62,951 nt of DNA, from the NCBI GenBank assembly GCA_020073005.1, contig JAIQFX010000017.1, positions 1 to 62,951 on the forward strand, given 5' to 3'. Under the pieces are notes generated by a model. That model searched no databases, was not told where the DNA came from, and saw nothing but the letters and a program-made list of their open reading frames with translations. The DNA comes from Terriglobia bacterium (GTDB taxonomy: Bacteria > Acidobacteriota > Vicinamibacteria > Vicinamibacterales > CAVVIG01). Each line of letters begins with the position of its first letter. Position 1 is the stretch's first letter. Made by a program: the position numbers and the translations under genes. Below are positions 42,793 to 55,580 of this stretch, piece after piece.

Positions 42793-43551
42793 CTACTTCG
42801 TCGCGTTGGCCACCATGGCGCGGAGTCCGGCGAGATGGTCGAAGCGCGAGTGGAACGGCGGCGTGTTCAGCTGGTAGCCGAGCTCGCTGAAATGATCGGC
42901 CGCCCACGTCGGCCCCATGAATCGCCCCCACGTCGCCGACGTCACGCTCACGACGCCGTCGTTGGGACGATCGGCGGCCGTCGGGGCGACGAATTCGATG
43001 TAATCGACCGCCGGCTTGAGAACCAGCGACTCGACGCCGACGCCGGCGTACGAGAAATACTTCACGCCAGGCGCATCGGGGTGCGTCGCGTTGAACTTCA
43101 CCGCCGATCCGGTGGTCAGCTCGCCGAGCGCCTCGAGGCGGATCTTCAGTTCGTCCAACGCGTGCGTCAGCATCTGATACGCGAACGCGCGCACGGCATG
43201 CCCGCCCGGATCCTTGCTGACGAGCAGATCGGCGATCGGACTGCCGCGATGCGGCGTCGAGATCGTCGACAGCGACTTGATCCGGCCGGACGAGCGGAGG
43301 CCGCGCAGGTCGCTGCTCAGCAGGCAGCGCGTGTCCAGGCCGCCCATGCTGTGCGCGATGACGTGGATGTCCCCCGCCGGAAACGCCTTGTCGATTTTCT
43401 CCGCCAGCACCGCCGCGCGGTTCGCGATCGTCTCCGTCGGCGGCACGACCGGAAAGATCGCGCCCGGAAACGCGGCGGCCGCGCCGCGGAAGTACTCCAG
43501 CCCCGCGAGATGATTCGGCACGAGGACGCCGGATGCGAAGACGAGGTTCAT
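42793..43551 (-). CDS. Alpha/beta-hydrolase, triacylglycerol lipase-like
   Basis: 252 residues with AAGGAG just upstream. No signal peptide is obvious, although residues 1-12 are hydrophobic. The nucleophile elbow is IHVIAHSMGGLDTR with Ser68 (AHSMG in place of GHSQG), followed by ISTPHRGSPIADLL, the second hallmark of family I lipases and related depolymerases. The Asp and His of the triad are probably in PNDGVVSV and WAADHFSEL. Lacks the disulphide and calcium-site features of secreted Pseudomonas lipases. A hairpin separates it from the upstream TPR gene. Confidence 0.8.
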   Translation of the reverse strand: MNLVFASGVLVPNHLAGLEYFRGAAAAFPGAIFPVVPPTETIANRAAVLAEKIDKAFPAGDIHVIAHSMGGLDTRCLLSSDLRGLRSSGRIKSLSTISTPHRGSPIADLLVSKDPGGHAVRAFAYQMLTHALDELKIRLEALGELTTGSAVKFNATHPDAPGVKYFSYAGVGVESLVLKPAVDYIEFVAPTAADRPNDGVVSVTSATWGRFMGPTWAADHFSELGYQLNTPPFHSRFDHLAGLRAMVANATK

Positions 43552-43614: not shown

Positions 43615-44865
43615 TTACCTGTGCACGTGAAAATCGCTGTACCGCGGATTGATCTCGTTCACGCGCGCAAGCAGCCGCTGCGCGTCTTCTGACTGCCCCG
43701 CGTCGCGCGCGATCGTCGCGGCGTGAAAGTACACATGCGCGTCGGCCATTCCCGACGCGAGCGCGCGCTTCTCGGTCTCCATCGCCTCGGCGATCTCGCC
43801 GTGACGATACAGCGCCCACGCCAGCGTGTCGACCGCCGGGTACCCGTGGCGCAGCTCGAGATCCTTGCGCGCCCACTTGACGGCCTCTGCGCCGTCGATG
43901 CGGACATCCGAATAGAACGCGGCGAGGTGATGGAAGAACTGGACCTCGCCCCGGCCTGTCGACTCGAGATACCCGGCCAGCGCGCGATCGTGCCATTGCT
44001 TCGCCTCGCGCGGCTTGCGCGCAACCATGGAGAGATCACCGAGCTGCTGATACAGATCCGGCCGCGGCGCGCGCGCGATCGCCTGCTCGTAGAGCGCGAT
44101 CGCCTCGTCGAACTCCCGCTCCGCGCCCAGCAACTCCGCCGTGTACTCGTCGACGAGCCAGTAGCCGGAGTACGCGCGGCCCGCCAGGCGATAGTGGCTC
44201 GCGGCCTCGTCGTAGCGCCCGCGGCTGAACTGCGTCCACCCGCGCTGCACTTCGACCCACGCGTACGCGCGCATGTCCTTCGCGGTCAGATCGTCTTCGG
44301 CCTGCGCGTAGAGCCGATCGCCGCCATCGGTGTCGCCGCGTGCCGCGGTCAGGAACGCGAGCCGCGCGAGCGCGCTCCACATCGACGACGTCGGCGCGCG
44401 GCGAACCACCGCCTCGTACCGCTCGCGCGCGTCGTCGTACAACCCGTCCTGCAGATCGACGTCGGCGCGCATCAGCTCGGCGTCCGCATCGCCAGCGGGA
44501 ATCGGCGCGAGATCGCGACGCGTCGCGGCGAGCCGGTGGACGCGGAAGTCGAGCGCCGCGTTCAACAACGCGAGATCGATGTCAGGACGTTTGTCCGCGA
44601 GCGCTCGGGCCACGGCGCCACTGGTTTCGCTGAAATCGCCGGGACGGTTGGTCAGGGTGGCGCGCTGATAGAGGCGGAACGCGCGGCGCGTCGACGCCTC
44701 GGGCGTCGATCCCTCCGGCATCGAGGCGATCTCCACGGCCAGCCGCTTCAACTCGCGATCGAAATCCGTCGTCCGCGCCCAGAGGCGCGGCGCGACCCAG
44801 ATCGCGGCGACGATCGTGGCGAGGCCCGCGATCAGCGCGGCGCGGGCGTATACGAGTCGGGCCAC
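43615..44865 (-). CDS. Membrane-anchored TPR-repeat protein
   Basis: 416 residues if started at the GTG at 44865, which overlaps the upstream DUF4331 gene by 34 bases. An N-terminal helix (AALIAGLATIVAAIWVAPRLW) anchors it. At least six tetratricopeptide-like units follow, for example ADVDLQDGLYDDARERYEAVV, AWVEVQRGWTQFSRGRYDEA, AIALYEQAIARAPRPDLYQQ and ATIARDAGQSEDAQRLLARV. TPR proteins serve as scaffolds; no catalytic motif is present. Tight coupling with the DUF4331 gene suggests they work together. Confidence 0.8.
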   Translation of the reverse strand: MARLVYARAALIAGLATIVAAIWVAPRLWARTTDFDRELKRLAVEIASMPEGSTPEASTRRAFRLYQRATLTNRPGDFSETSGAVARALADKRPDIDLALLNAALDFRVHRLAATRRDLAPIPAGDADAELMRADVDLQDGLYDDARERYEAVVRRAPTSSMWSALARLAFLTAARGDTDGGDRLYAQAEDDLTAKDMRAYAWVEVQRGWTQFSRGRYDEAASHYRLAGRAYSGYWLVDEYTAELLGAEREFDEAIALYEQAIARAPRPDLYQQLGDLSMVARKPREAKQWHDRALAGYLESTGRGEVQFFHHLAAFYSDVRIDGAEAVKWARKDLELRHGYPAVDTLAWALYRHGEIAEAMETEKRALASGMADAHVYFHAATIARDAGQSEDAQRLLARVNEINPRYSDFHVHR

Positions 44866-46706
44866 GGGTCGGCCAGGTAGGGGAAGGTCGGGAGGAATTC
44901 CTTGTCGTTGACCAGCGGGTTCGGCGGCACCTTCGGTTCGAACGGCAGCGTGTCGAGCGCGGCCTGATTCTGGAGCGTCTCGATGTTGTACGGCGTGCCT
45001 TTGAAGTCCGCGCTCATGTCCAGGAAGATTGACAGGAAGCGCGTCGCGACCTGATCCTCGAGCCGCCGTCCGAACGGCCACGTGCCGGTCGTGTCCATGT
45101 CGATCGCGCACACGTTCGGCACGAACACCTCGTACGCGTGCCGGACCGGGATGTCGCTCCGGCCCTTGTTCCAGCTGTCATCGGGCATCGTCATCGGCTG
45201 GAAGAGCATCTTCTGCACTTTCAGGAACGCCGCGCCGATCTGACTCGCGTCGTACGTGCGCCACACGGACACCGGCGAGTTCTCGTGATCGAACGACGTC
45301 TTCAGGCCGAGCGCGCTGACCGACGGCGCGAAGCCCCACCCGAGATGCGCGAGCCGCAGGATGAAATGCGGCGCGAGCCAGAAATTGTTGGCGCCGACCT
45401 GACGCGCGTCCTCGCGCTCGTTCAGTCCGGCGTCAGCGAACGGCTGGCCGTCGGTGTCGACGAGCTTGTAGTTGCGCAGCTCGTCCGCCATCGACGCGCG
45501 CTCGAGCTCCGCGTGCTGGCCCGGCCGCGTCTCGTGCAGCAGCGCCAGTCCAACGCCGACGCTGACCATGACTACGCCGGCGACGACCTGAACTGGCCGG
45601 CGCGAGAGGAACGGCGCGCTGTGTCGTGGCCGCGTCGCGCCGTACAGCACCCAGAGGATGCCGACGGCGATCGCCGCGCCGCCGATGTACCGGGCATTCT
45701 CGGCCAGCGCACTCAGCGGCAGCATCGCGCCATCGTCGGGAATCGTCTTGATCTTGCCGGACGCCTTCAGCACCCAGCTCTCGCCCCACGCGTTCACGAT
45801 GCGATCGTTCTCCGGTGTCTTCGTGATGAAGTTGAGCGGCAGCTCGAGAATGATCGCGTTGACGTTCTTGCCGGCCTGCGCGTCGCGGCCGCTGTAGACG
45901 AAACGGTAGTTGCCGTTCTCGTCCTTCTTGAACTTGTTGCCGCTCCAGCCGAGCGGTCCCTGCGGCAGATCCTTCTTGACGCCCCGGCCGTGCAGCGGGT
46001 TCGCCGGATCGAAGTTGAACAGCGTGTTGCCGTCGAGCTCGAGAAGCGTCTTGGGAATCTTCAGCTCGCGCGTGTCCGCCATCGCCTGCGGGACTTTGTA
46101 GAACTGCGGCGCGTAGTTGATCGAGCGAAAGAATCCCGGCAGGTCGTTGAAGAACGCGTCGTCTCGTCCGCCGACGAAGACGTTGATCGTGGAGCCGTCC
46201 GCCGCCTTGACCTTCGTGGCGGTGTTGGCGTCGATCGTCTGCGAGATCGGGCCGCCGGGAAAATCGATGAAGTCGATCTTCACGCGGGTGTTCTGATCGA
46301 AGCGGACGCGAACCTCGGCCGGCTTCAGCCGCAGGTACTTGTCCTTCAGCGCGTCGAAGTACTTCAGCAGCGCGTTCAGGCTGTGGTCTTCGCCCATCGG
46401 CGCGACGACCCGCGGGTTGGGCGCGAAGAGGACGCGGTACAGCAGGTCGGGATCGAACTCGCCGGCCTTGGGCACGGCCGCGAACGTCAGCGCGACGACG
46501 ACGCGCTCGACGCCGCCGCTGTGATCGGTGCTGGGAAAACCGAACAGATCGTACAGGTCCGCGCCGTTCTGCGGGACGTCCCAGAAGATCGAATTGACCG
46601 CGTTCGGATCGTTGTGATCGGCCGGGCGCGACACGCTCGGTGTCAGCACGCCGGCGGCCACGACGAGAAGCACGAGGGCCAAGCGTGTCATCCGCATGCG
46701 CCGCAT
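44832..46706 (-). CDS. DUF4331-like exported protein with two internal transmembrane helices
   Basis: 624 residues. ATGs at 46706, 46697 and 46691 are all possible starts before the signal peptide (LALVLLVVAAGVLTPSVS). The N-terminal signature SRPADHNDPNAVNSIFWDVP and LYDLFGFPSTDHSGGVERVV is that of DUF4331. It runs to about residue 330 (FITKTPENDRIVNAWGESW). Two helices follow (YIGGAAIAVGILWVLYG; VVAGVVMVSVGVGLALL). A second soluble part of about 220 residues ends with NDKEFLPTFPYLADPWPDS, which again looks like the end of a DUF4331 domain. The helices thus seem to split or follow the domain in an unusual way. Function unknown. Confidence 0.8.
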   Translation of the reverse strand: MRRMRMTRLALVLLVVAAGVLTPSVSRPADHNDPNAVNSIFWDVPQNGADLYDLFGFPSTDHSGGVERVVVALTFAAVPKAGEFDPDLLYRVLFAPNPRVVAPMGEDHSLNALLKYFDALKDKYLRLKPAEVRVRFDQNTRVKIDFIDFPGGPISQTIDANTATKVKAADGSTINVFVGGRDDAFFNDLPGFFRSINYAPQFYKVPQAMADTRELKIPKTLLELDGNTLFNFDPANPLHGRGVKKDLPQGPLGWSGNKFKKDENGNYRFVYSGRDAQAGKNVNAIILELPLNFITKTPENDRIVNAWGESWVLKASGKIKTIPDDGAMLPLSALAENARYIGGAAIAVGILWVLYGATRPRHSAPFLSRRPVQVVAGVVMVSVGVGLALLHETRPGQHAELERASMADELRNYKLVDTDGQPFADAGLNEREDARQVGANNFWLAPHFILRLAHLGWGFAPSVSALGLKTSFDHENSPVSVWRTYDASQIGAAFLKVQKMLFQPMTMPDDSWNKGRSDIPVRHAYEVFVPNVCAIDMDTTGTWPFGRRLEDQVATRFLSIFLDMSADFKGTPYNIETLQNQAALDTLPFEPKVPPNPLVNDKEFLPTFPYLADPWPDSYTPAPR

Positions 46707-46848: not shown

Positions 46849-47952
46849 ATGAAACGCCGTTATTTCACAGCCGCCGCGCTGCTGATTCTGCTGTCCGGCG
46901 CAGCCCGCGCGCGCGCGCAAGGACCCACGATCGATCCCGCATTCATCGGCGACTGTCACGTCACCGTGCAAGTCGCCGCCGCCGGCGCGGCGGGAAGGAT
47001 CGACGTCAGCCTGAACAGGCATCTGTTGACGCGACAGGGCCTCGACGCGAACCGGCGGTCGATCGTCGTGGTCCTGAATGGACCGCTGCAGGACGGCGAC
47101 ATCGTGAGCGTGCGACTCGCCGCGGGCGCGTCGGCGAGCGCGGCGGCGATGCCGCGGCCCACCGCCACGGCACCGGAGTGCGAAGGGCCGCAGCGGCCGA
47201 CCTTCGACGATCGCGCGGCATTCGAAGCGAGCGCGTACTACGGCCGCTCCTTCGACAACTTCGCGCCTGATTCGATCGGCGCGTACATCAACTCCAGTCA
47301 GCTTGGCGACATCAAGTCGCGCTACATCGCGGGCACCGACGTGCAGTACCGTCTCCTCGGCAAGCCCACGTCTGACGTGCAACTCTGGCTGTCGGCGGAG
47401 ACGCTTCACGGCGTGCGCTCGGCTGATGTCGACTGCACCAATAGAAAGGACGGCATCTGCAGCGGCAAGACGACCGATCAGTACCTCGCGGTGCTGGCGG
47501 GAGCGACGAGCCTTGAAGCCTTCTTCGATCCGCGCCTCGAGCTCTTCACGCTGCAGCGGTCGTCGGACTTCCCCGTCAAGGGCTATCTCACCGCGAGGTT
47601 CGGCTTTGTCGACGTCGAGGGCGCGCCGAAGGTGTCGCGCGACGATCACGTCGGAGGCGGCCTCCTCGCGCCGACGGGGCCTTTCTCGGGCAGCAGCGCG
47701 GAAATCGGTTTCGGGCGGACCGCGTTGTTCGACAGCAGTCCGGGCTGGCATCGCATGAAGATCGACGCGACGCTCATGTTCGACCTGATGCCGGGGCTCG
47801 CCGATCGCGTGAACGTCTTCAAGCGCATGGGCGGCGCGACGCGAGGGTTCGTCGAAATCTACATCGACCGGAATCCGGGCGGATCGGCGCCCGACAGCGT
47901 GCAGACGTTTGTCGGCGTCTCGTTCGATTTCCGATCGGCCTTCGGGAAGTAA
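46849..47952 (+). CDS. Exported protein, probable outer-membrane beta-barrel
   Basis: 367 residues. The ATG at 46849 opens into a signal peptide (RYFTAAALLILLSGAARARAQ). A small N-terminal domain of about 100 residues (CHVTVQVAAAGAAGRIDVSLN, VVVLNGPLQDGDIVSVRLAAG) is followed by about 240 residues of alternating polar and hydrophobic strands (YYGRSFDNFAPDSIG, SRYIAGTDVQYRLLG, VQLWLSAETLHG, KGYLTARFGFVDVEG) ending in FVGVSFDFRSAFGK. This looks like a barrel. I recognise no family. It is first in a three-gene run with the phospholipase (12-bp gap) and the alpha-dioxygenase, and could carry their product or substrate across the outer membrane. Confidence 0.6.
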   Translation: MKRRYFTAAALLILLSGAARARAQGPTIDPAFIGDCHVTVQVAAAGAAGRIDVSLNRHLLTRQGLDANRRSIVVVLNGPLQDGDIVSVRLAAGASASAAAMPRPTATAPECEGPQRPTFDDRAAFEASAYYGRSFDNFAPDSIGAYINSSQLGDIKSRYIAGTDVQYRLLGKPTSDVQLWLSAETLHGVRSADVDCTNRKDGICSGKTTDQYLAVLAGATSLEAFFDPRLELFTLQRSSDFPVKGYLTARFGFVDVEGAPKVSRDDHVGGGLLAPTGPFSGSSAEIGFGRTALFDSSPGWHRMKIDATLMFDLMPGLADRVNVFKRMGGATRGFVEIYIDRNPGGSAPDSVQTFVGVSFDFRSAFGK

Positions 47953-47964
47953 GGGAGCAGGACC

Positions 47965-49755
47965 ATGCGATCGCTGCTGCTCTCCTCGTTGATCGTCGCG
48001 ACCGCCGCGCTGACCGTGGCCGGCGCGCCGCCGCCGCCGTGCGCCAACTGTCTGAACGCGAGAGTCTGGCCGGTCGATCCGGAAGACTTCAGGAAAACCG
48101 GCGACCCGCAATTTCCGGAGACCGCGCGTCTCGCCGAGATGACGAACCGCGTGGATCTCGGCATCGCGTTCTCGGGCGGCGGCACGCGGTCGGCGTCCGC
48201 GACGCTCGGCCAGTTGCGAGGACTCAGGCACCTCGGGTGGCTCGATCGCGTCCGCTACATTGCGGCCGTGTCGGGCGGATCGTGGGCGGCGTTGCCGTAC
48301 ACGTATTGGAAGGGCAGAGACGACGACCTCCTCGGCGTGTACGAGGAACCAGCGCAACTGGACCACGACAAAGTCCTGCTGACGCCGAACGGCACGCTCG
48401 CGAAGATCATCTCGGAATCGTCAATCGCTGGACCGGGACTGCGCGAAGCCGCCGGGGAGTTTCGAACGTTTGCGCTGCCGGAGAACGCCAACGCGTACAT
48501 CGACAAGGCGCTCAGCGCGCTCGACAAGAGCCGGCGTGAAGCGGGCCGGGCCAACAAGACGTACTCCCGGCTCCTCCAGGACAAGTTCATCACGCCGCTC
48601 GTCGGCAGCCAGTCCGGGCTGCGCGTCGGATGGGAGGAGCGATCGGTCGATCAGATCTCGACGGACAATCCGAGGACGCTGGGCGCGCACGAATTCATCA
48701 AGGTGCCCGACGGCCGGCCGTTCTTCATCGCCGGCGCGACGCTCGTGCCGCCGCATCCCGCGTTCTACTATCCGCCGCTCGCGCCGGTCGAGTACACGCC
48801 GCTCTACAGCGGCATCCGGCAGCAGTTCGGGGCGATCGGCGGCGCGTACATCGCGACGTGGGCGTACGACAGCGTCGACGTCTCGCCGGGCGAGGGCGGT
48901 CTGGTCCGCGTCCGTCCGGCGGCCGACGGCCGGACGTTCACGCCGGCCGACATCATCAGCAGCACCGGCGCCGCGCCGCAACTGACGCTGCTGCTCGGCG
49001 CGCGCGGCAAGGGCATGCTCAACAAGATCTTCGGGACGGCGTCCGGCTACTTCCCCGCCTACCATCCGATCGCGGTGCGCGCCACGGGTCCGGCGCTCGA
49101 CGCGGAAATCCCGCACGGCGACGGCGGCTTCATGGACTACTTCGGCATCATGCCGCTGCTCGCGCGCCACGTCCGCAACATCATCGTGTTCATCAATTCG
49201 AACAACGACTTCGATCAGAACGACGATCTCCATTCGCTGTTCTTCGAGGGCGCCAGGAACGACAGCGGCGACAAGTCGATGAATATCGTCTTCACGCCTG
49301 CGCGGTACCACGAGCTGATGACCAACCTGGCGCAGCGCCGGACCTCCGGCGCGCCGCCGGTCTATTGCGGCACCAACTGGGAAGTGGCGGCGAACGAGGC
49401 GTACAACATCCGCACGTACGGAGACCTCAACATCTGCTGGGTGTACAACCGGCCGACCGGGCAATGGAACGACACGTTGAAGGCGCCGATCAAGCAGATC
49501 ATGAGCGGCGACACGAAGACGCAGACCGATCTGGAGAAGAAAGCGGGCAGCTTCGCTGATTTTCCGTGGTACAAGACGTTCGAGCAGAAGCCGCCGTATG
49601 TCATCGAACTGTCGGTCGCGCAGGTGAATCTGTTGTCGAACCTGACCGCCTGGACCGTCGCCAACAAGGACAGCGCCGCGGCGCTGATGAACGCGCTCGG
49701 CCGCGCGTTCGGCGGCCGGCCGCCGGCCGTGCCGGCCGACGGAACACCCGACTAA
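47965..49755 (+). CDS. Secreted patatin/cPLA2-like phospholipase
   Basis: 596 residues with a signal peptide (LLLSSLIVATAALTVAGA). The acyl-hydrolase dyad is visible: oxyanion-hole loop AFSGGGTRSASATLG (residues 68-82), nucleophile Ser103 in IAAVSGGSWAALPY, and aspartate 386 in EIPHGDGGFMDYFG. The Ser/Asp spacing (about 280 residues) and the SGGSW elbow resemble cytosolic phospholipase A2 of eukaryotes more than the compact bacterial patatins. It would release fatty acids from phospholipids in the periplasm or outside. It lies 12 bases after a predicted barrel gene and 5 bases before a gene for an alpha-dioxygenase-like enzyme that uses free fatty acids. Confidence 0.85.
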   Translation: MRSLLLSSLIVATAALTVAGAPPPPCANCLNARVWPVDPEDFRKTGDPQFPETARLAEMTNRVDLGIAFSGGGTRSASATLGQLRGLRHLGWLDRVRYIAAVSGGSWAALPYTYWKGRDDDLLGVYEEPAQLDHDKVLLTPNGTLAKIISESSIAGPGLREAAGEFRTFALPENANAYIDKALSALDKSRREAGRANKTYSRLLQDKFITPLVGSQSGLRVGWEERSVDQISTDNPRTLGAHEFIKVPDGRPFFIAGATLVPPHPAFYYPPLAPVEYTPLYSGIRQQFGAIGGAYIATWAYDSVDVSPGEGGLVRVRPAADGRTFTPADIISSTGAAPQLTLLLGARGKGMLNKIFGTASGYFPAYHPIAVRATGPALDAEIPHGDGGFMDYFGIMPLLARHVRNIIVFINSNNDFDQNDDLHSLFFEGARNDSGDKSMNIVFTPARYHELMTNLAQRRTSGAPPVYCGTNWEVAANEAYNIRTYGDLNICWVYNRPTGQWNDTLKAPIKQIMSGDTKTQTDLEKKAGSFADFPWYKTFEQKPPYVIELSVAQVNLLSNLTAWTVANKDSAAALMNALGRAFGGRPPAVPADGTPD

Positions 49756-49760
49756 TAACG

Positions 49761-52523
49761 ATGGCGCGGCACGTGCGCGGTATCTGCGTGTCGTGCCTGT
49801 CCGCGCTGGCGCTGCTCGGCGCCGCCTGCAACACCGACCTCGGCGGCTGCGTCGACGAGGTGAAGACAGGTGCCCGCCGCATCGCGTCCACGCGCGACGC
49901 GCGGTTCCTCGGCAAGGTGCAGGAGGCCACGGCACGCTGCCGCGGCGGCGACGCCGCCGTCAGCTTTCGCGCGGCGCCCTGGGTGGACTGGTCGAACTAC
50001 TACGCGACCGGCGACACGGGATCGCGATCGTGGTGGCCGAGCAAGAACGCGCGGGGCGTCGGCGGCGCGCTCATCGATCTCGAGTACGAGCGCGTCGAGC
50101 TGATCAAGTTCAACCTGTTCGACAACGGCGGGACATTTCCTGGTTACGTGCGCGGCGCTGACGGCGTCGAGGGTCCGGCGATCAAGCAGTGGCCCGAGAT
50201 GCGCCTGCCGCCGGATCATCCGCGCTACGCCGACGTCGGCGGCGCCGGCGCGCAGCGCTGCTCGGGCGCGCTGATTCGCGGTCGCACGCTGACCGGCATC
50301 TGCAACGACCTCTTCAATCCGCTGATGGGATCGACGGGCACGCTCTTCGCGCGCAACGTCGAGTTCGAGTCGACGTTCCCCGACGCCGGCTTGAACGAGA
50401 TCGCGCGCAACCGGCATGGCGATCGCCTGTCGCTGCTGAAACCGGATCCGCAGGTGATCAGCCGCACGCTTTTCACGCGCGCGCAATCCGATCCTTCGGC
50501 GTGCAACGACGGCGCGGGCAAGCCGGGCTTCGCCATCGACGCGAACTGCGATTACAAGCCGGCGCCGTTCTTCAACGTGCTCGCCGCGTTCTGGATCCAG
50601 TTCATGACGCATGACTGGTTCTCGCACCTCGACGAGGGCCACAACGGACCGGAGTCCATGCCGATGGGCTGCACGCCGGCCGACGCGGCGCGCCTCGGCT
50701 GCCGGCCGGGTGACGCCATCGACAAAGCGATCGTCGCGCAGAGCGATCCGGCGCCGACGTTCGGCAATCCCGCGCGGCTCGCGCGCGCGCCGAAAACATT
50801 TCGCAACACGAACACGGCGTGGTGGGACGCGTCGCAGCTCTACGGGTACGACGAGCGCTCGCGCGAACGCGTGAAGCGCGATCCGGCGGATCGCGCGCGG
50901 CTGCTTCTCCCGCCTGTCGACGGGCGCCGCTCAGCTGGCGATCGTCAAGGCTATCTGCCGACGCTGGCGCCAGGCGATCCGATGAACGCCGAGTGGGCCG
51001 GGCAGGAAGCGACGGCGTTTCCGGACAACTGGACCGTCGGCACGAGCTTCTACCACAACCTCTTCGCGCGCGAGCACAACCTGTTCGTCGACGCGTTTCG
51101 CACGCGCGCGGCGGCGACGCCTGACGCCGACAGCGGACTCCGCGATCCGTCGACGCCGGCGCGCGTGATTCGCTATCGCGACGTCAGCGCCGACGAGCTC
51201 TTCGACGCCGCGCGCCTCGTCGTCGCGGCCGAGATCGCGAAGATCCACACGATCGAGTGGACGACGCAGTTGCTGTACGACGAGCCGCTGTACAAGGCGA
51301 TGAACGGCAACTGGAACGGACTGCTCGGCAGTGGCGGCGTCCTGCCCGATGCGCTGACGAAGACGCTCGAGCGTCTGGGCAGCGCGTCGAAGGCCGCGCC
51401 GGCCAACGAGCTGTACTCGGTGCTCGCGTCGGGCCCCGGCATCTTCGGCCTCGGGAGCCGCAAGCCAGGGTGGCAGCTCACCAATCCCGGCGATGTGAAT
51501 GGCGGCGTGAATCATTTCGGATCGCCGTTCAACTTCCCCGAGGAGTTCGTCACCGTCTACAGACTGCATCCGCTGGTGCCCGATCTCCTCGAGTACCGCG
51601 ACGCCGGCGATCCGGACGTCGTGCGCGCGAAGATCCCGGTCATCGAAACGTTTCGCGCCAAGGCGACGAGCGCCATGCGCGAGCGCGGCCTCGCCGCATG
51701 GGCGCTGACGCTCGGCCGGCAGCGGCTCGGGCTGCTGACGCTGAACAACCATCCGCGCTTTCTGCAGCACGTGCCGATGGGGCGCCTGAACAGCGCGACG
51801 AATCAGATCGATGTCGCGGCGCTGGACATCGTCCGCGATCGCGAGCGCGGCATCCCGCGCTTCAACGAATTCCGGCGCCAGTACGGCCTGCGCACGCTGG
51901 CGGGCTTCGATGACTTCATCGATCCGCATCTGGCCGCGGACTCCCCAGTGCGGCAGGAACAGATGAAAACGGCCGCGGCGCTGCGCGACGTCTACGGGCG
52001 GCATCGGTGCGACACGTCCAAGGTGATCACGCTTGCGCAGAAGAACGACGATGGATCGCCGATAGACGACTGTCTCGGCCACCCGAACGGATCGATGGTG
52101 GACAACATCGAGGATCTCGACACCGTGGTCGGCTGGCTGGCCGAGCCCGCGCGGCCGCACGGATTCGCGATTTCAGAAACGCAGTTCGTCGTGTTCATTC
52201 TGAACGCGTCGCGGCGGCTGTTCAGCGATCGCTTCTTCACGTCGAGCTTCCGGCCGGAGTTCTACACGGCGATGGGCGTCGGCTGGGTGAACAACAACGG
52301 GCCGGAGCCGATGTTCGAGCCGGGCGCGATCAACGGCCACGCGCACGAGCCGGTGTCGCCGCTCAAGCGCATCCTGCTGCGCGCGATTCCGGAGCTGGCG
52401 CCAGAGCTCGCGCACGTGATCAACGTGTTCGACCCCTGGGCGCGCGATCGCGGCGACTATTACAGTCTTGAATGGAAGCCGCGGCCGGACGCGACGGCCG
52501 ATAAAGCGTTCTCGAAGAAATGA
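49761..52523 (+). CDS. Fatty-acid alpha-dioxygenase-like haem protein (animal haem peroxidase superfamily)
   Basis: 920 residues with a hydrophobic export signal (VSCLSALALLGAACN, possibly a lipoprotein). From about residue 150 the order of motifs matches plant alpha-dioxygenases: a GRTLTGICNDLFNPLMGSTG segment, distal His284 in FWIQFMTHDWFSHL, NTNTAWWDASQLYGYDE, LFAREHNLFVDAF, AAEIAKIHTIEWTTQLLYDE, and proximal His603 with the radical tyrosine Tyr600 in EEFVTVYRLHPLVPD. Tyr three residues before the His is the cyclooxygenase/alpha-dioxygenase arrangement, not that of ordinary peroxidases. Plant enzymes make 2-hydroperoxy fatty acids. It follows the phospholipase gene by 5 bases. Confidence 0.88.
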   Translation: MARHVRGICVSCLSALALLGAACNTDLGGCVDEVKTGARRIASTRDARFLGKVQEATARCRGGDAAVSFRAAPWVDWSNYYATGDTGSRSWWPSKNARGVGGALIDLEYERVELIKFNLFDNGGTFPGYVRGADGVEGPAIKQWPEMRLPPDHPRYADVGGAGAQRCSGALIRGRTLTGICNDLFNPLMGSTGTLFARNVEFESTFPDAGLNEIARNRHGDRLSLLKPDPQVISRTLFTRAQSDPSACNDGAGKPGFAIDANCDYKPAPFFNVLAAFWIQFMTHDWFSHLDEGHNGPESMPMGCTPADAARLGCRPGDAIDKAIVAQSDPAPTFGNPARLARAPKTFRNTNTAWWDASQLYGYDERSRERVKRDPADRARLLLPPVDGRRSAGDRQGYLPTLAPGDPMNAEWAGQEATAFPDNWTVGTSFYHNLFAREHNLFVDAFRTRAAATPDADSGLRDPSTPARVIRYRDVSADELFDAARLVVAAEIAKIHTIEWTTQLLYDEPLYKAMNGNWNGLLGSGGVLPDALTKTLERLGSASKAAPANELYSVLASGPGIFGLGSRKPGWQLTNPGDVNGGVNHFGSPFNFPEEFVTVYRLHPLVPDLLEYRDAGDPDVVRAKIPVIETFRAKATSAMRERGLAAWALTLGRQRLGLLTLNNHPRFLQHVPMGRLNSATNQIDVAALDIVRDRERGIPRFNEFRRQYGLRTLAGFDDFIDPHLAADSPVRQEQMKTAAALRDVYGRHRCDTSKVITLAQKNDDGSPIDDCLGHPNGSMVDNIEDLDTVVGWLAEPARPHGFAISETQFVVFILNASRRLFSDRFFTSSFRPEFYTAMGVGWVNNNGPEPMFEPGAINGHAHEPVSPLKRILLRAIPELAPELAHVINVFDPWARDRGDYYSLEWKPRPDATADKAFSKK

Positions 52524-52596
52524 ACCACGGAGGACACGGAGGAAAGGAGGAACGTGGGAATGACGCCTCCGTGCGTTTCCGTGTCCTCCGTGGTTC
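52522..52596. repeat. 19-bp perfect inverted repeat, part of a dispersed-type intergenic repeat
   Basis: The left arm GAACCACGGAGGACACGGA (52522-52540) and right arm TCCGTGTCCTCCGTGGTTC (52578-52596) are perfect complements around a 37-base loop. The left arm begins inside the stop codon of the alpha-dioxygenase gene. The sequence to about 52640 (GCAGTTTCAGCGTGTTCTGC) belongs to the same style of repeat, which I recall from intergenic regions of many unrelated bacteria. It can also act as a transcript-end hairpin. The remainder of the 219-bp gap to 52742 holds no gene. Confidence 0.65.
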
Positions 52597-52742
52597 CATC
52601 TTCTTTCCGCAGTTTCAGCGTGTTCTGCGTTCAACGTCGTCCCGTACGTCTGTCCTGACAAGCTCTCGACGGCGCGCCAGGCGTTGCGGTGATGTGACAC
52701 GCTCGTCACTGCGCTGACACGCCGCCTCGATAGGTTCGGAGC

Positions 52743-53486: not shown

Positions 53487-55580
53487 ATGCGCGGCCTGGT
53501 TGCATTCGGCATCGCGGTCGCGTGCCTGACGGCGACGACCGCGATGGCAGGGCTCGGCCCGGCGCGCGCACGCACCGAACGCACGCATTCAGACGACGCC
53601 AGGGACGAACGCGCGTACGTGGGATCGGACGCGTGCCGGCGCTGTCACCAGGCCGTGTACGCGACGTGGAAGGCGTCGCTCCACGTCCAGATGACGAAGC
53701 CGATCGAGCGCGCATCGGTGAAGGGCGACTTCGCGCCGGACGCACCGGTCACGCAGCACGGCCGCACCTACGACATGCGCGCGGCGAACGGCGGCTATTC
53801 CATCGCCGTCACCCGCGGGTCCGCTCCGCCTGAAACATTTGACGTCCACTTCACGCTCGGCGCGAAACGGTTCCAGGGATATCTCTCGCGGCTGCCCGAC
53901 GGACGCATCTACGTCCTGCCGGTCTTCTGGAACGTCGAGTGGAAACGCTGGCTCGACTGGACCGAAATCACGCCGGTCCCGGAATCCGACGGCGACCTGC
54001 GTCAGATCTGGAACGTCAACTGCTTCAACTGTCATGCCACGAACATCCAGCGCAACGTCGACGCCGGCACGCGCACGTTCAAGACGACGGCCACGGAGAT
54101 GGGCGTGGGCTGCGAAGCGTGCCACGGTCCGGGCCGCGCGCACGTTGAGCTGACCACGGGGTGGGACACGCATCCCGACACGTGGCCGGACCTCGATTAC
54201 AGCCGGGCAAACCGGAACCTCGGCGCGCAGCTTCGGATCTTCTCCGCGCGCACCGCGGATCCGCGGCAGGTGTACGACGCGTGCGCCTACTGCCACGGCA
54301 ACAAGAAGAACTTCTTCACGAACTTCACGCCAGGCGATCGCCTCGAGAACGCCGCCGAGCTCGCGCTCATCAGCGATCCGGTGCCGGCGAGCGATCCGCA
54401 GGGCGAGTTCTGGCCGGACGGACGGCCGAGCCGCTTCAATCGTCCGCAGGCGCTCACGCTGTCGGGATGCTTTCGCAAAGGGAACGTGACGTGCACCGAC
54501 TGCCACGTCGCGCACGGATCGGTGAACGAGCACTCGTTGAAAGTCCCGATGGAAGAGAGCGATCGGCTGTGTGTTCAGTGCCACGCGAAGGCGGGTGGGG
54601 CGGGTGGGGCAGGGAAGGAAGAACACAGTCATCACGCGGAGGATTCGGCGGGCAGTCGCTGCGTGAACTGCCACATGAGCGACGTCAACTGGCGGCTGCT
54701 CACGCGGCGGCGCGATCACACGTTCGCGGCGCCGGTGCCCGAGATGACCGCGCGCTACGGCGTCCCCAACGCGTGCACGACGTGCCACGAGGATCGACCG
54801 CCGGAGTGGGCGGCGAAGACGATGGACGCGTGGTACGGCGACGCGACCAGACGTCGGGCGGCCGTGCGAACCGCGGATGCGATTTACGGCGCCGGCAGCG
54901 GTGACCGCGCGGCTGTTCCCGAGCTCGAGGCGCTCGCGCTCGATCGAAGTCAGGGCGCGCTGCTTCGCGCGAGCGCGGCTGGATTCCTGGGGCGCGCGAC
55001 CCTGACGGCCGGGCCGCCGGGCGTGTCGGGCGCGGCGAGCGCCCCGGGAACGACCGACGCGCTCACGCGCGCCACGAGAGATCCCGAACCGATGGTGCGA
55101 ATCGCCGCTGTGCGATCGCTCGGATCCACAGGCGCCGACGACAGCGGCCAGGTGGTCGCGGCGCTCGTCGCCCGGCTGCGCGATTCGGTCCGCGTCGTCC
55201 GCGTCAGCGCGGCGGAGGTGCTGCTGGATCTCGGCATCAGCCAGCTCGACGGCCCTTCAGGCGCCGCGTTGCGTGAGGCGCAGGACGAGTATGCGGAAAG
55301 CCTGCTCGCGTTTCCGGACGAGGCATCGCGCCAGACGTCGCTCGGCTGGCTGAGAGCGTCGCAGGGGCGGACCGATGAAGCCTCGCGGGCGCTGCGCCTC
55401 GCGCGGACGCTCGATCCGAACGACGCCAGGCCGCTCGTCTATCTCGGCGTCCTCGCGGCGCGGGCGGGCCGATACAACGACGCGATGGCGCAGTGGCGCG
55501 CGGCGCGGGAGATCAATCCGCGATATCCCAACATCGATCGGATGATTGATGAGGCGCGACGGCGAACGTCGCGACCCTAA
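53487..55580 (+). CDS. Octahaem c-type cytochrome with helical (HEAT-like and TPR) C-terminal repeats
   Basis: 697 residues with signal peptide (AFGIAVACLTATTAMA). Eight CXXCH haem sites start at residues 50, 179, 209, 266, 336, 362, 392 and 430, in the order expected for multihaem cytochrome-c554-type electron carriers or reductases. After the last haem, residues ~455-600 are alpha-helical HEAT-like repeats (AVPELEALALDRSQGALLRA, DPEPMVRIAAVRSLGSTGAD). The end carries TPR units (SLGWLRASQGRTDEASRALR, VYLGVLAARAGRYNDAMAQW). A Gly/Ala patch (AGGAGGAGKE) between haems 6 and 7 is encoded by a 9-bp tandem repeat seen elsewhere in the window. Its substrate is unknown. Confidence 0.9.
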   Translation: MRGLVAFGIAVACLTATTAMAGLGPARARTERTHSDDARDERAYVGSDACRRCHQAVYATWKASLHVQMTKPIERASVKGDFAPDAPVTQHGRTYDMRAANGGYSIAVTRGSAPPETFDVHFTLGAKRFQGYLSRLPDGRIYVLPVFWNVEWKRWLDWTEITPVPESDGDLRQIWNVNCFNCHATNIQRNVDAGTRTFKTTATEMGVGCEACHGPGRAHVELTTGWDTHPDTWPDLDYSRANRNLGAQLRIFSARTADPRQVYDACAYCHGNKKNFFTNFTPGDRLENAAELALISDPVPASDPQGEFWPDGRPSRFNRPQALTLSGCFRKGNVTCTDCHVAHGSVNEHSLKVPMEESDRLCVQCHAKAGGAGGAGKEEHSHHAEDSAGSRCVNCHMSDVNWRLLTRRRDHTFAAPVPEMTARYGVPNACTTCHEDRPPEWAAKTMDAWYGDATRRRAAVRTADAIYGAGSGDRAAVPELEALALDRSQGALLRASAAGFLGRATLTAGPPGVSGAASAPGTTDALTRATRDPEPMVRIAAVRSLGSTGADDSGQVVAALVARLRDSVRVVRVSAAEVLLDLGISQLDGPSGAALREAQDEYAESLLAFPDEASRQTSLGWLRASQGRTDEASRALRLARTLDPNDARPLVYLGVLAARAGRYNDAMAQWRAAREINPRYPNIDRMIDEARRRTSRP
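54591..54614 (+). repeat. 9-bp tandem repeat GCGGGTGGG inside the octahaem cytochrome gene
   Basis: Two full units and a partial one, encoding AGGAGGAG between haem sites 6 and 7. The same unit (as CCCCACCCG) recurs at 60088-60121 and 61431-61449. Confidence 0.7.

Follow-up and report, generated by a model that had tools for sequence, protein, structure and literature searches.

Could a bacterium feed a fatty-acid oxygenase from a lipase encoded directly in front of it, with both enzymes acting outside the cytoplasm? The question is raised by three genes at positions 46849–52523 of contig JAIQFX010000017.1 from a Terriglobia bacterium (GenBank assembly GCA_020073005.1), of which a stretch of 62,951 nucleotides, hereafter the window, was analysed. 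The three plus-strand open reading frames (ORFs) encode a barrel-like protein of 367 amino acids (aa) without a Pfam family (46849–47952), an acyl hydrolase of 596 aa resembling cPLA2 (47965–49755) and a haem protein of 920 aa resembling fatty-acid alpha-dioxygenases (alpha-DOX; 49761–52523). A preliminary description of this locus had reported three tightly spaced genes, 12 and 5 bases apart, and a set of enzyme motifs, all of which were confirmed in the ORFs and their translations, and it had read them as a lipase–oxygenase module, an interpretation that as a whole was partly supported. All three products have N-termini that appear export-like. Since the genes lie on the same strand with such short gaps, a single transcription unit is supported, and we consider it probable that this unit specifies an exported lipid-oxygenating pair performing lipase-fed fatty-acid alpha-oxygenation outside the cytoplasm.

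The haem protein matched the Pfam family An_peroxidase (205.5 bits; cut-off 25). In a search of solved structures it matched rice alpha-DOX (E 7.8e-57) and Arabidopsis alpha-DOX (1.5e-51), whereas the next chain, 8s6c, a cyanobacterial peroxidase according to its entry title, reached only 5.6e-4; the kinship with alpha-DOX is thus far beyond chance. The motifs FMTHDWFSHL, NTAWWDASQLYG, KIHTIEWTTQLL and VYRLHPLVPD were found in the translation. A gene for a product of 584 aa on plasmid pCAL6303.01 of Calothrix PCC 6303 served as residue yardstick, and was taken as CalDOX since 13 of 13 residue positions printed in the available text of PMC8720084 fit its sequence. Mapping via CalDOX predicted the distal haem ligand His284 (codon 50610–50612; CalDOX H131), the proximal ligand His603 (51567–51569; H361) and, in the pattern Tyr-x-x-His, the radical tyrosine Tyr600 (51558–51560; Y358); His496, Trp500, Thr501, Phe596, Phe809, Phe812, Ile813, Ala816, Arg819 and Arg111 were mapped likewise. 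All catalytic and carboxylate-binding residues given for CalDOX and OsaDOX in the available text of PMC8720084 were present (H284, H496, W500, T501, F596, Y600, H603, F812 and R819), with H496, T501 and R819 equivalent to H311, T316 and R559 of OsaDOX, which hold the carboxylate and the alpha carbon. An AlphaFold model built from 56 sequences (predicted local distance difference test (pLDDT) 88.5; predicted template modelling score (pTM) 0.91) was nearest to rice alpha-DOX 4kvj (Z 33.3; 2.3 Å over 574 residues), ahead of 8s6c (Z 26.2), the remaining peroxidases, which scored lower, and cyclooxygenases (about 22).

Residues, modelled fold and phylogeny (see below) together support the assignment of the haem protein as a plant-type alpha-DOX, which agreed at every residue position applied, and the earlier assignment to this enzyme type was borne out: set against peroxidase and cyclooxygenase structures, the protein grouped with alpha-DOX and kept the radical tyrosine. 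An ordinary haem peroxidase was rejected on the basis of residues and fold. It is very improbable that the protein serves as a protective peroxidase or a scavenger of lipid hydroperoxides instead of a dioxygenase; it does belong to the An_peroxidase superfamily, and some of its relatives adjoin catalase-related and (sub-threshold) DyP-like genes, but the radical and carboxylate residues of alpha-DOX (Tyr600, His496, Thr501 and Arg819) are retained and the modelled fold is closer to alpha-DOX than to peroxidases.

Relatives of the alpha-DOX were collected by scanning one genome per species in 84,980 species; of the 199 found, the 80 best (55–70% identity) were kept, and with others added 105 loci were studied, many of them metagenome-assembled contigs. 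The tyrosine and the proximal histidine were kept in all 105 and the distal histidine in 103 (one gap, one Arg). Divided at 45% identity to the window protein, 84 loci belonged to its clade (mostly 880–1000 aa) and 21 were divergent, 16 of them with 558–640 aa, including CalDOX, and five with 944–1334 aa; as most loci were chosen by similarity, 84 of 105 is not a natural frequency. Grouping at 80% alpha-DOX identity gave 71 groups, and in a quick tree of 70 of them (L123 omitted; midpoint root; several long branches flagged; support by the Shimodaira–Hasegawa-like approximate likelihood ratio test (SH-aLRT) only) the two sets were separated by a branch with SH-aLRT 100. The named rows closest to the window were mostly Acidobacteriota. 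Within the clade, going by record titles, Pseudomonadota (35), Acidobacteriota (20), Nitrospirota (16), Thermodesulfobacteriota (4), Gemmatimonadota (3), Campylobacterota (1) and Myxococcota (1) were represented, besides four loci without a phylum name, and the carriers included Nitrosomonas europaea, Methylomonas and Halomonas. Among the 84 loci, ten cysteine columns reached a conservation of at least 85%, compared to one among the 21 divergent loci, and the cysteines of the window protein that follow its lipobox cysteine were exactly those ten. Judged by eye, its N-terminus (LLGAAC) resembles a lipoprotein signal, and a hydrophobic N-terminus was seen in 54 of the 84 clade members versus 2 of the 21 divergent proteins. 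From these sequence features we infer export and disulfide bonding for the long clade.

The motifs FSGGGTRS, VSGGSW and DGG were found in the hydrolase. Its match to Patatin (PF01734; 26.1 bits, E 1.2e-5) lay under the curated cut-off of 27.7, and PLA2_B (PF01735) was matched at E ≤ 0.1 by three of six rows (best 4.7e-6), with no match for the window protein. With a profile of 11 hydrolase rows, E values were 1.4e-12 for cPLA2-delta and 3e-5 for cPLA2-alpha, but no better than 0.36 for the patatin-like VipD. The best chains for its weak structural model were human cPLA2 1cjy (Z 18.6 over 313 residues) and cPLA2-delta (16.2–17.6), with PlpD (11.6) and patatin (7.8) lower. Across the 11 rows, which have the GGG-x-R, SGG and DGG pattern, Ser103 (codon 48271–48273, in VSGGSW) and Arg75 (48187–48189, in SGGGTR; aligned with residue 200 of human cPLA2) were invariant and Asp386 (49120–49122, in DGG) near-invariant. 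A cPLA2-like hydrolase with a predicted dyad of Ser103 and Asp386, together with Arg75, is thereby supported, as the preliminary description had proposed, with profile, weak model and residues all leaning to cPLA2. A plain patatin identity was rejected, given the Pfam score under the cut-off and a profile and model favouring cPLA2. The hydrolase is rare, being found in 4 of 396 genomes of the phylum with a single query and, as near full-length profile matches, in 5 of 327 genomes, each count including its own genome. No bacterial cPLA2 was described in the titles and abstract beginnings among the literature matches listed.

The barrel-like gene is a recurrent partner of the cPLA2-like gene. 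Relatives were present in 5 of 60 genomes, its own included, and in loci L145, L146 and L147, though not in L148, such a gene precedes a cPLA2-like gene (40–42% identical) with a four-base overlap. Barrel-like and alpha-DOX genes occurred together in four of the five barrel-bearing genomes, with alpha-DOX in 7 of the 60 (hypergeometric P 3.4e-4), a co-occurrence given little weight because the genomes are related and the genes lie on separate contigs in two of them. Some loci with relatives of the hydrolase or the barrel-like protein showed further arrangements. In L145 (4137–10649) a minus-strand row of four genes encodes barrel-like, cPLA2-like, patatin-like (sub-threshold) and Tle1-like proteins, an apparent operon without alpha-DOX; in L137 (7512–10474) a Tle1-like gene immediately follows a divergent cPLA2-like gene; and L148 (508–12333) holds eleven plus-strand genes that begin with a divergent alpha-DOX, include those for a catalase-related protein and two cytochromes resembling RoxA, and end in a barrel-like relative of the 46849 product.

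How often do lipases adjoin alpha-DOX elsewhere? Neighbouring genes were taken from our own gene call, which placed a gene upstream in 73 and downstream in 73 of the 80 loci. Of the 134 immediate neighbours (rank 1), 133 were scanned in batch; the remaining long gene (L101: 3966–9617), scanned apart, had the domains CHAT, DUF7379 and TPR-S, besides a hydrolase match under threshold. The families found were Catalase (7), Oxidored_FMN (5), P450 (5), Tle1-like (4), Patatin (4), DUF1569 (3), FAD_binding_4 (3), Lipase_3 (2), ABHD18 (2) and GMC (2). Lipase-family genes thus accounted for 12 of 133 (11 of 131 without the window) in 12 of the 71 groups: Patatin in the window (below cut-off), L026, L050 and L063, Tle1-like in L028, L042, L078 and L100, Lipase_3 (class 3) in L127 and L133, and ABHD18 in L097 and L099. 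At rank 2 (123 genes) Patatin was found twice, and the control at ranks 6–7 (150 genes) held two Tle1-like and at most one each of Patatin, Lipase_3 and ABHD18. Compared to this control (2 to 5 of 150, a range due to unseen control families), the rank-1 lipases were enriched (Fisher P 0.003 to 0.039). In 40 alpha-DOX genomes with 129 Patatin and 18 Tle1-like matches, 0.071 were expected to adjoin alpha-DOX and five were observed (P 1.4e-8 in a simple Poisson model, with match rows counted as they stand, some genes being split, and assigned to loci by coordinate arithmetic). A local count with hidden Markov models, not dereplicated and with the window included, gave lipases in 13 of 372 genes at ranks 1–2 versus 8 of 908 farther away (P 0.0016). 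On the alpha-DOX tree, a lipase label (16 of 70 rows), which also takes in ranks 2 to 4 (L104, L122, L134 and L130), required at least 14 changes, 11 of them forced by starred branches, and showed no more clustering than was seen after shuffling (206 and 214 of 500 as low); gains or losses of lipase neighbours have therefore been numerous. Although this particular pair is not conserved, four lipase families (Tle1-like, patatin, class 3 and ABHD18) recur beside alpha-DOX, so that the pairing proposed earlier is supported in a wider form, with lipases of other families, and not for the same orthologous pair.

Several observations weigh against the exported lipid-oxygenating pair. The window hydrolase was found at full length in none of the 80 related alpha-DOX loci (a short motif-level match only in five), and alpha-DOX in none of the 11 loci of hydrolase relatives, several of which end at contig edges; a homologous pair kept together in other genomes, on which the preliminary description had made its reading depend, was thus not seen in this neighbourhood survey. 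Two genomes among the hydrolase-relative loci carry a divergent alpha-DOX on a different contig. A lipase-family gene immediately adjoins alpha-DOX in only 12 of the 71 groups, the lipase families were selected after the neighbours had been inspected, and GMC genes are equally common in the control (2 of 150) and beside alpha-DOX (2 of 133). For the hydrolase, the cPLA2 profile match spans about 100 residues in the nucleophile region only, and the model was built from 6 sequences (pLDDT 51.0; pTM 0.62). Besides, 30 of the 84 clade members lack a clear hydrophobic N-terminus, although their start calls are uncertain, and catalase, P450 or OYE partners do not adjoin the genes in the window. That the adjacency in the window is accidental, and its recurrence elsewhere a product of general lipid-related gene neighbourhoods, would agree with the barrel-like and cPLA2-like pair standing without an adjoining alpha-DOX in L145–L147, with the Tle1-like genes in 2 of 150 control genes and with the lack of an adjoining lipase in most groups; the five-base gap on one strand and the excess of patatin and Tle1-like genes at rank 1 in the 40 genomes argue otherwise, and we regard such an accident as unlikely.

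Gene order, family, residues, alpha-DOX fold and recurrent lipase neighbours were observed; that the pair is co-transcribed, exported and active, that substrate passes from one enzyme to the other, and what product and purpose result, we infer along the following lines. The three genes would be transcribed as one unit, and the cPLA2-like enzyme would cleave acyl chains off membrane or scavenged lipids, perhaps assisted at the outer membrane by the barrel-like partner. A lipid-anchored, disulfide-bonded alpha-DOX would then take up the freed fatty acid. By analogy with the known alpha-DOX family, whose oxygenation chemistry this is, the Tyr600 radical would abstract the alpha hydrogen and O2 would be added to give a 2-hydroperoxy acid, which may yield either CO2 and an aldehyde one carbon shorter or a 2-hydroxy acid.

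Other neighbours of alpha-DOX bear on what might become of such a product. Catalase-related (allene oxide synthase-like), P450, OYE and RoxA-like neighbours fit hydroperoxide processing: for the catalase-related protein in L102, a search of solved structures gave matches to 3e4w (4.7e-7) and to an allene oxide synthase domain from coral (3.5e-6), and RoxA-like cytochromes were found near alpha-DOX in L148 and other loci. In L102 (9974–18495) a long-clade alpha-DOX is followed by genes for a catalase-related protein, a protein of about 150 aa, one of about 434–470 aa without a Pfam family, a DyP-like protein (sub-threshold) and a second catalase-like relative; this type of row was also found in L081, L084, L089, L073, L100 and L101, and parts of it in 18–24 loci. 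On the minus strand of L104 (6943–11028) a divergent alpha-DOX is followed by an OYE-type flavin oxidoreductase and then a Tle1-like lipase. In L088 (12935–17653), L051, L060, L079 and L090, the Nitrosomonas alpha-DOX gene lies next to genes for a GMC oxidoreductase and a large cytochrome c. Enzymes annotated as dependent on thiamine pyrophosphate (TPP), a benzoylformate decarboxylase and a TPP-binding protein, lie near plasmid-borne alpha-DOX in L133 (1–5668) and L134 (2959–4667) and possibly cleave 2-hydroxy-acyl compounds. We put forward only tentatively that bacteria from seven or more named phyla possess an extracytoplasmic lipid-mediator cascade, in which interchangeable lipases would feed a disulfide-bonded exported alpha-DOX whose products would pass to catalase-related, P450, di-haem or OYE finishing enzymes, the window representing the most eukaryote-like form with its cPLA2-like lipase and an oxygenase of the cyclooxygenase superfamily.

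The same neighbourhoods could serve nutrition, the lipase and alpha-DOX scavenging environmental lipids and shortening fatty acids by one carbon for food, odd chains or aldehydes, with no signal involved. FAD_binding_4 oxidases, GMC oxidoreductases and cytochromes c among the neighbours speak for this, as do the TPP enzymes on two plasmids, candidates for the processing of aldehydes or 2-hydroxy acids. Exported enzymes would lose a soluble product unless it were retained, however, and, as a weaker point, aldehyde dehydrogenase and acyl-CoA ligase were not among the best 25 of 117 and 190 neighbour families; such catabolic alpha-oxidation appears possible but rather unlikely. A role in harming competitor membranes, or in producing toxic fatty aldehydes and hydroperoxides, we hold to be quite improbable. 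Pfam names the Tle1-like family for type VI secretion effectors, and the L145 row combines barrel-like, cPLA2-like, patatin-like and Tle1-like genes; against this, the window lipase bears an export-like N-terminus of its own, and neither secretion apparatus nor immunity genes were among the named scanned neighbours, although no search was aimed at them.

The surroundings of the three genes in the window were also inspected. Directly 3′ of the alpha-DOX gene lies a long hairpin formed by an inverted repeat (52524–52605, plus strand; z −7.4). This repeat resembles repetitive extragenic palindromic elements, its 17-base arm having 37 genomic copies (18 forward and 19 reverse; none in a backward control). 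Farther 3′ follow a gene with a sub-threshold DUF4097 match and one for a multihaem cytochrome (53487–55580) that has eight CxxCH motifs together with HEAT and TPR repeats. On the 5′ side the minus strand carries genes for a DUF4331 protein (44832–46706), a TPR protein and an alpha/beta hydrolase (42793–43551). The last is the lipase gene noted earlier at a distance of 3 kb; it is indeed present, but all its Pfam matches were under their cut-offs, and it was excluded as a module member because it lies on the opposite strand with two genes intervening.

If the pair works as proposed, lipase-fed oxygenation of the cPLA2-plus-oxygenase type would exist in bacteria too, with several lipase families recruited separately, and work on bacterial oxylipins would gain a defined set of genes open to testing. 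The recurrent lipase neighbours hint at a bacterial counterpart of human lipid-signal pathways, and the exported clade may offer biocatalysts. Calothrix PCC 6303 provides a characterised relative near a patatin-like gene: on its plasmid, two hypothetical genes and a transposase separate CalDOX from genes for a GMC oxidoreductase and a patatin-like protein that lie some kb behind it.

How does this locus compare with known systems? Bacterial alpha-DOXs are known and characterised, including ones from Acidobacteria and Proteobacteria, according to the available text of PMC8720084, which reports about 1400 family members and in whose main text no word begins with "lipase", "operon" or "signal peptide". 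A linkage of lipase and alpha-DOX was not mentioned in the available parts of PMC9305512 (a review), PMC13049297 and PMC11719350, nor found in the titles and abstract beginnings among the alpha-DOX literature matches listed. The enzyme kind is therefore already known, whereas the exported clade and its recurrent neighbours from several lipase families were not found described. The view that this is not an established system holds for the linkage, but not for alpha-DOX as such or for bacterial oxylipin pathways, which other enzymes provide. The diol synthase pathway of Pseudomonas aeruginosa (PA2077/PA2078) likewise oxygenates free fatty acids by jointly encoded haem proteins, but these belong to the di-haem cytochrome c peroxidase family and act on C10 of oleate (available text of PMC5155153, in which "lipase" occurs as a word start 0 times). 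With plant and cyanobacterial alpha-DOX (rice 4kvj, Arabidopsis 4hhr and CalDOX) the window protein shares haem ligands, radical tyrosine, carboxylate-binding His, Thr and Arg, and fold; its clade differs in being longer (mostly about 880–1000 aa versus 584 aa for CalDOX), in its ten conserved cysteines and frequent signal-like N-terminus, and in occupying its own side of the tree. Human group IV cPLA2, the closest chain by the weak model, shares with the hydrolase the GGG-x-R loop, the SGG elbow and the DGG-type Asp, whereas the window hydrolase is bacterial, has an export-like N-terminus and no further Pfam domain found, and shows 14–17% identity across the aligned fold of that weak model. 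In animals, cPLA2 releases fatty acid to cyclooxygenase in a well-known cascade. The window resembles it in logic only, combining a cPLA2-like hydrolase with a member of the cyclooxygenase–peroxidase superfamily, and differs from it in its presumed alpha-DOX chemistry, its predicted export and its bacterial origin.

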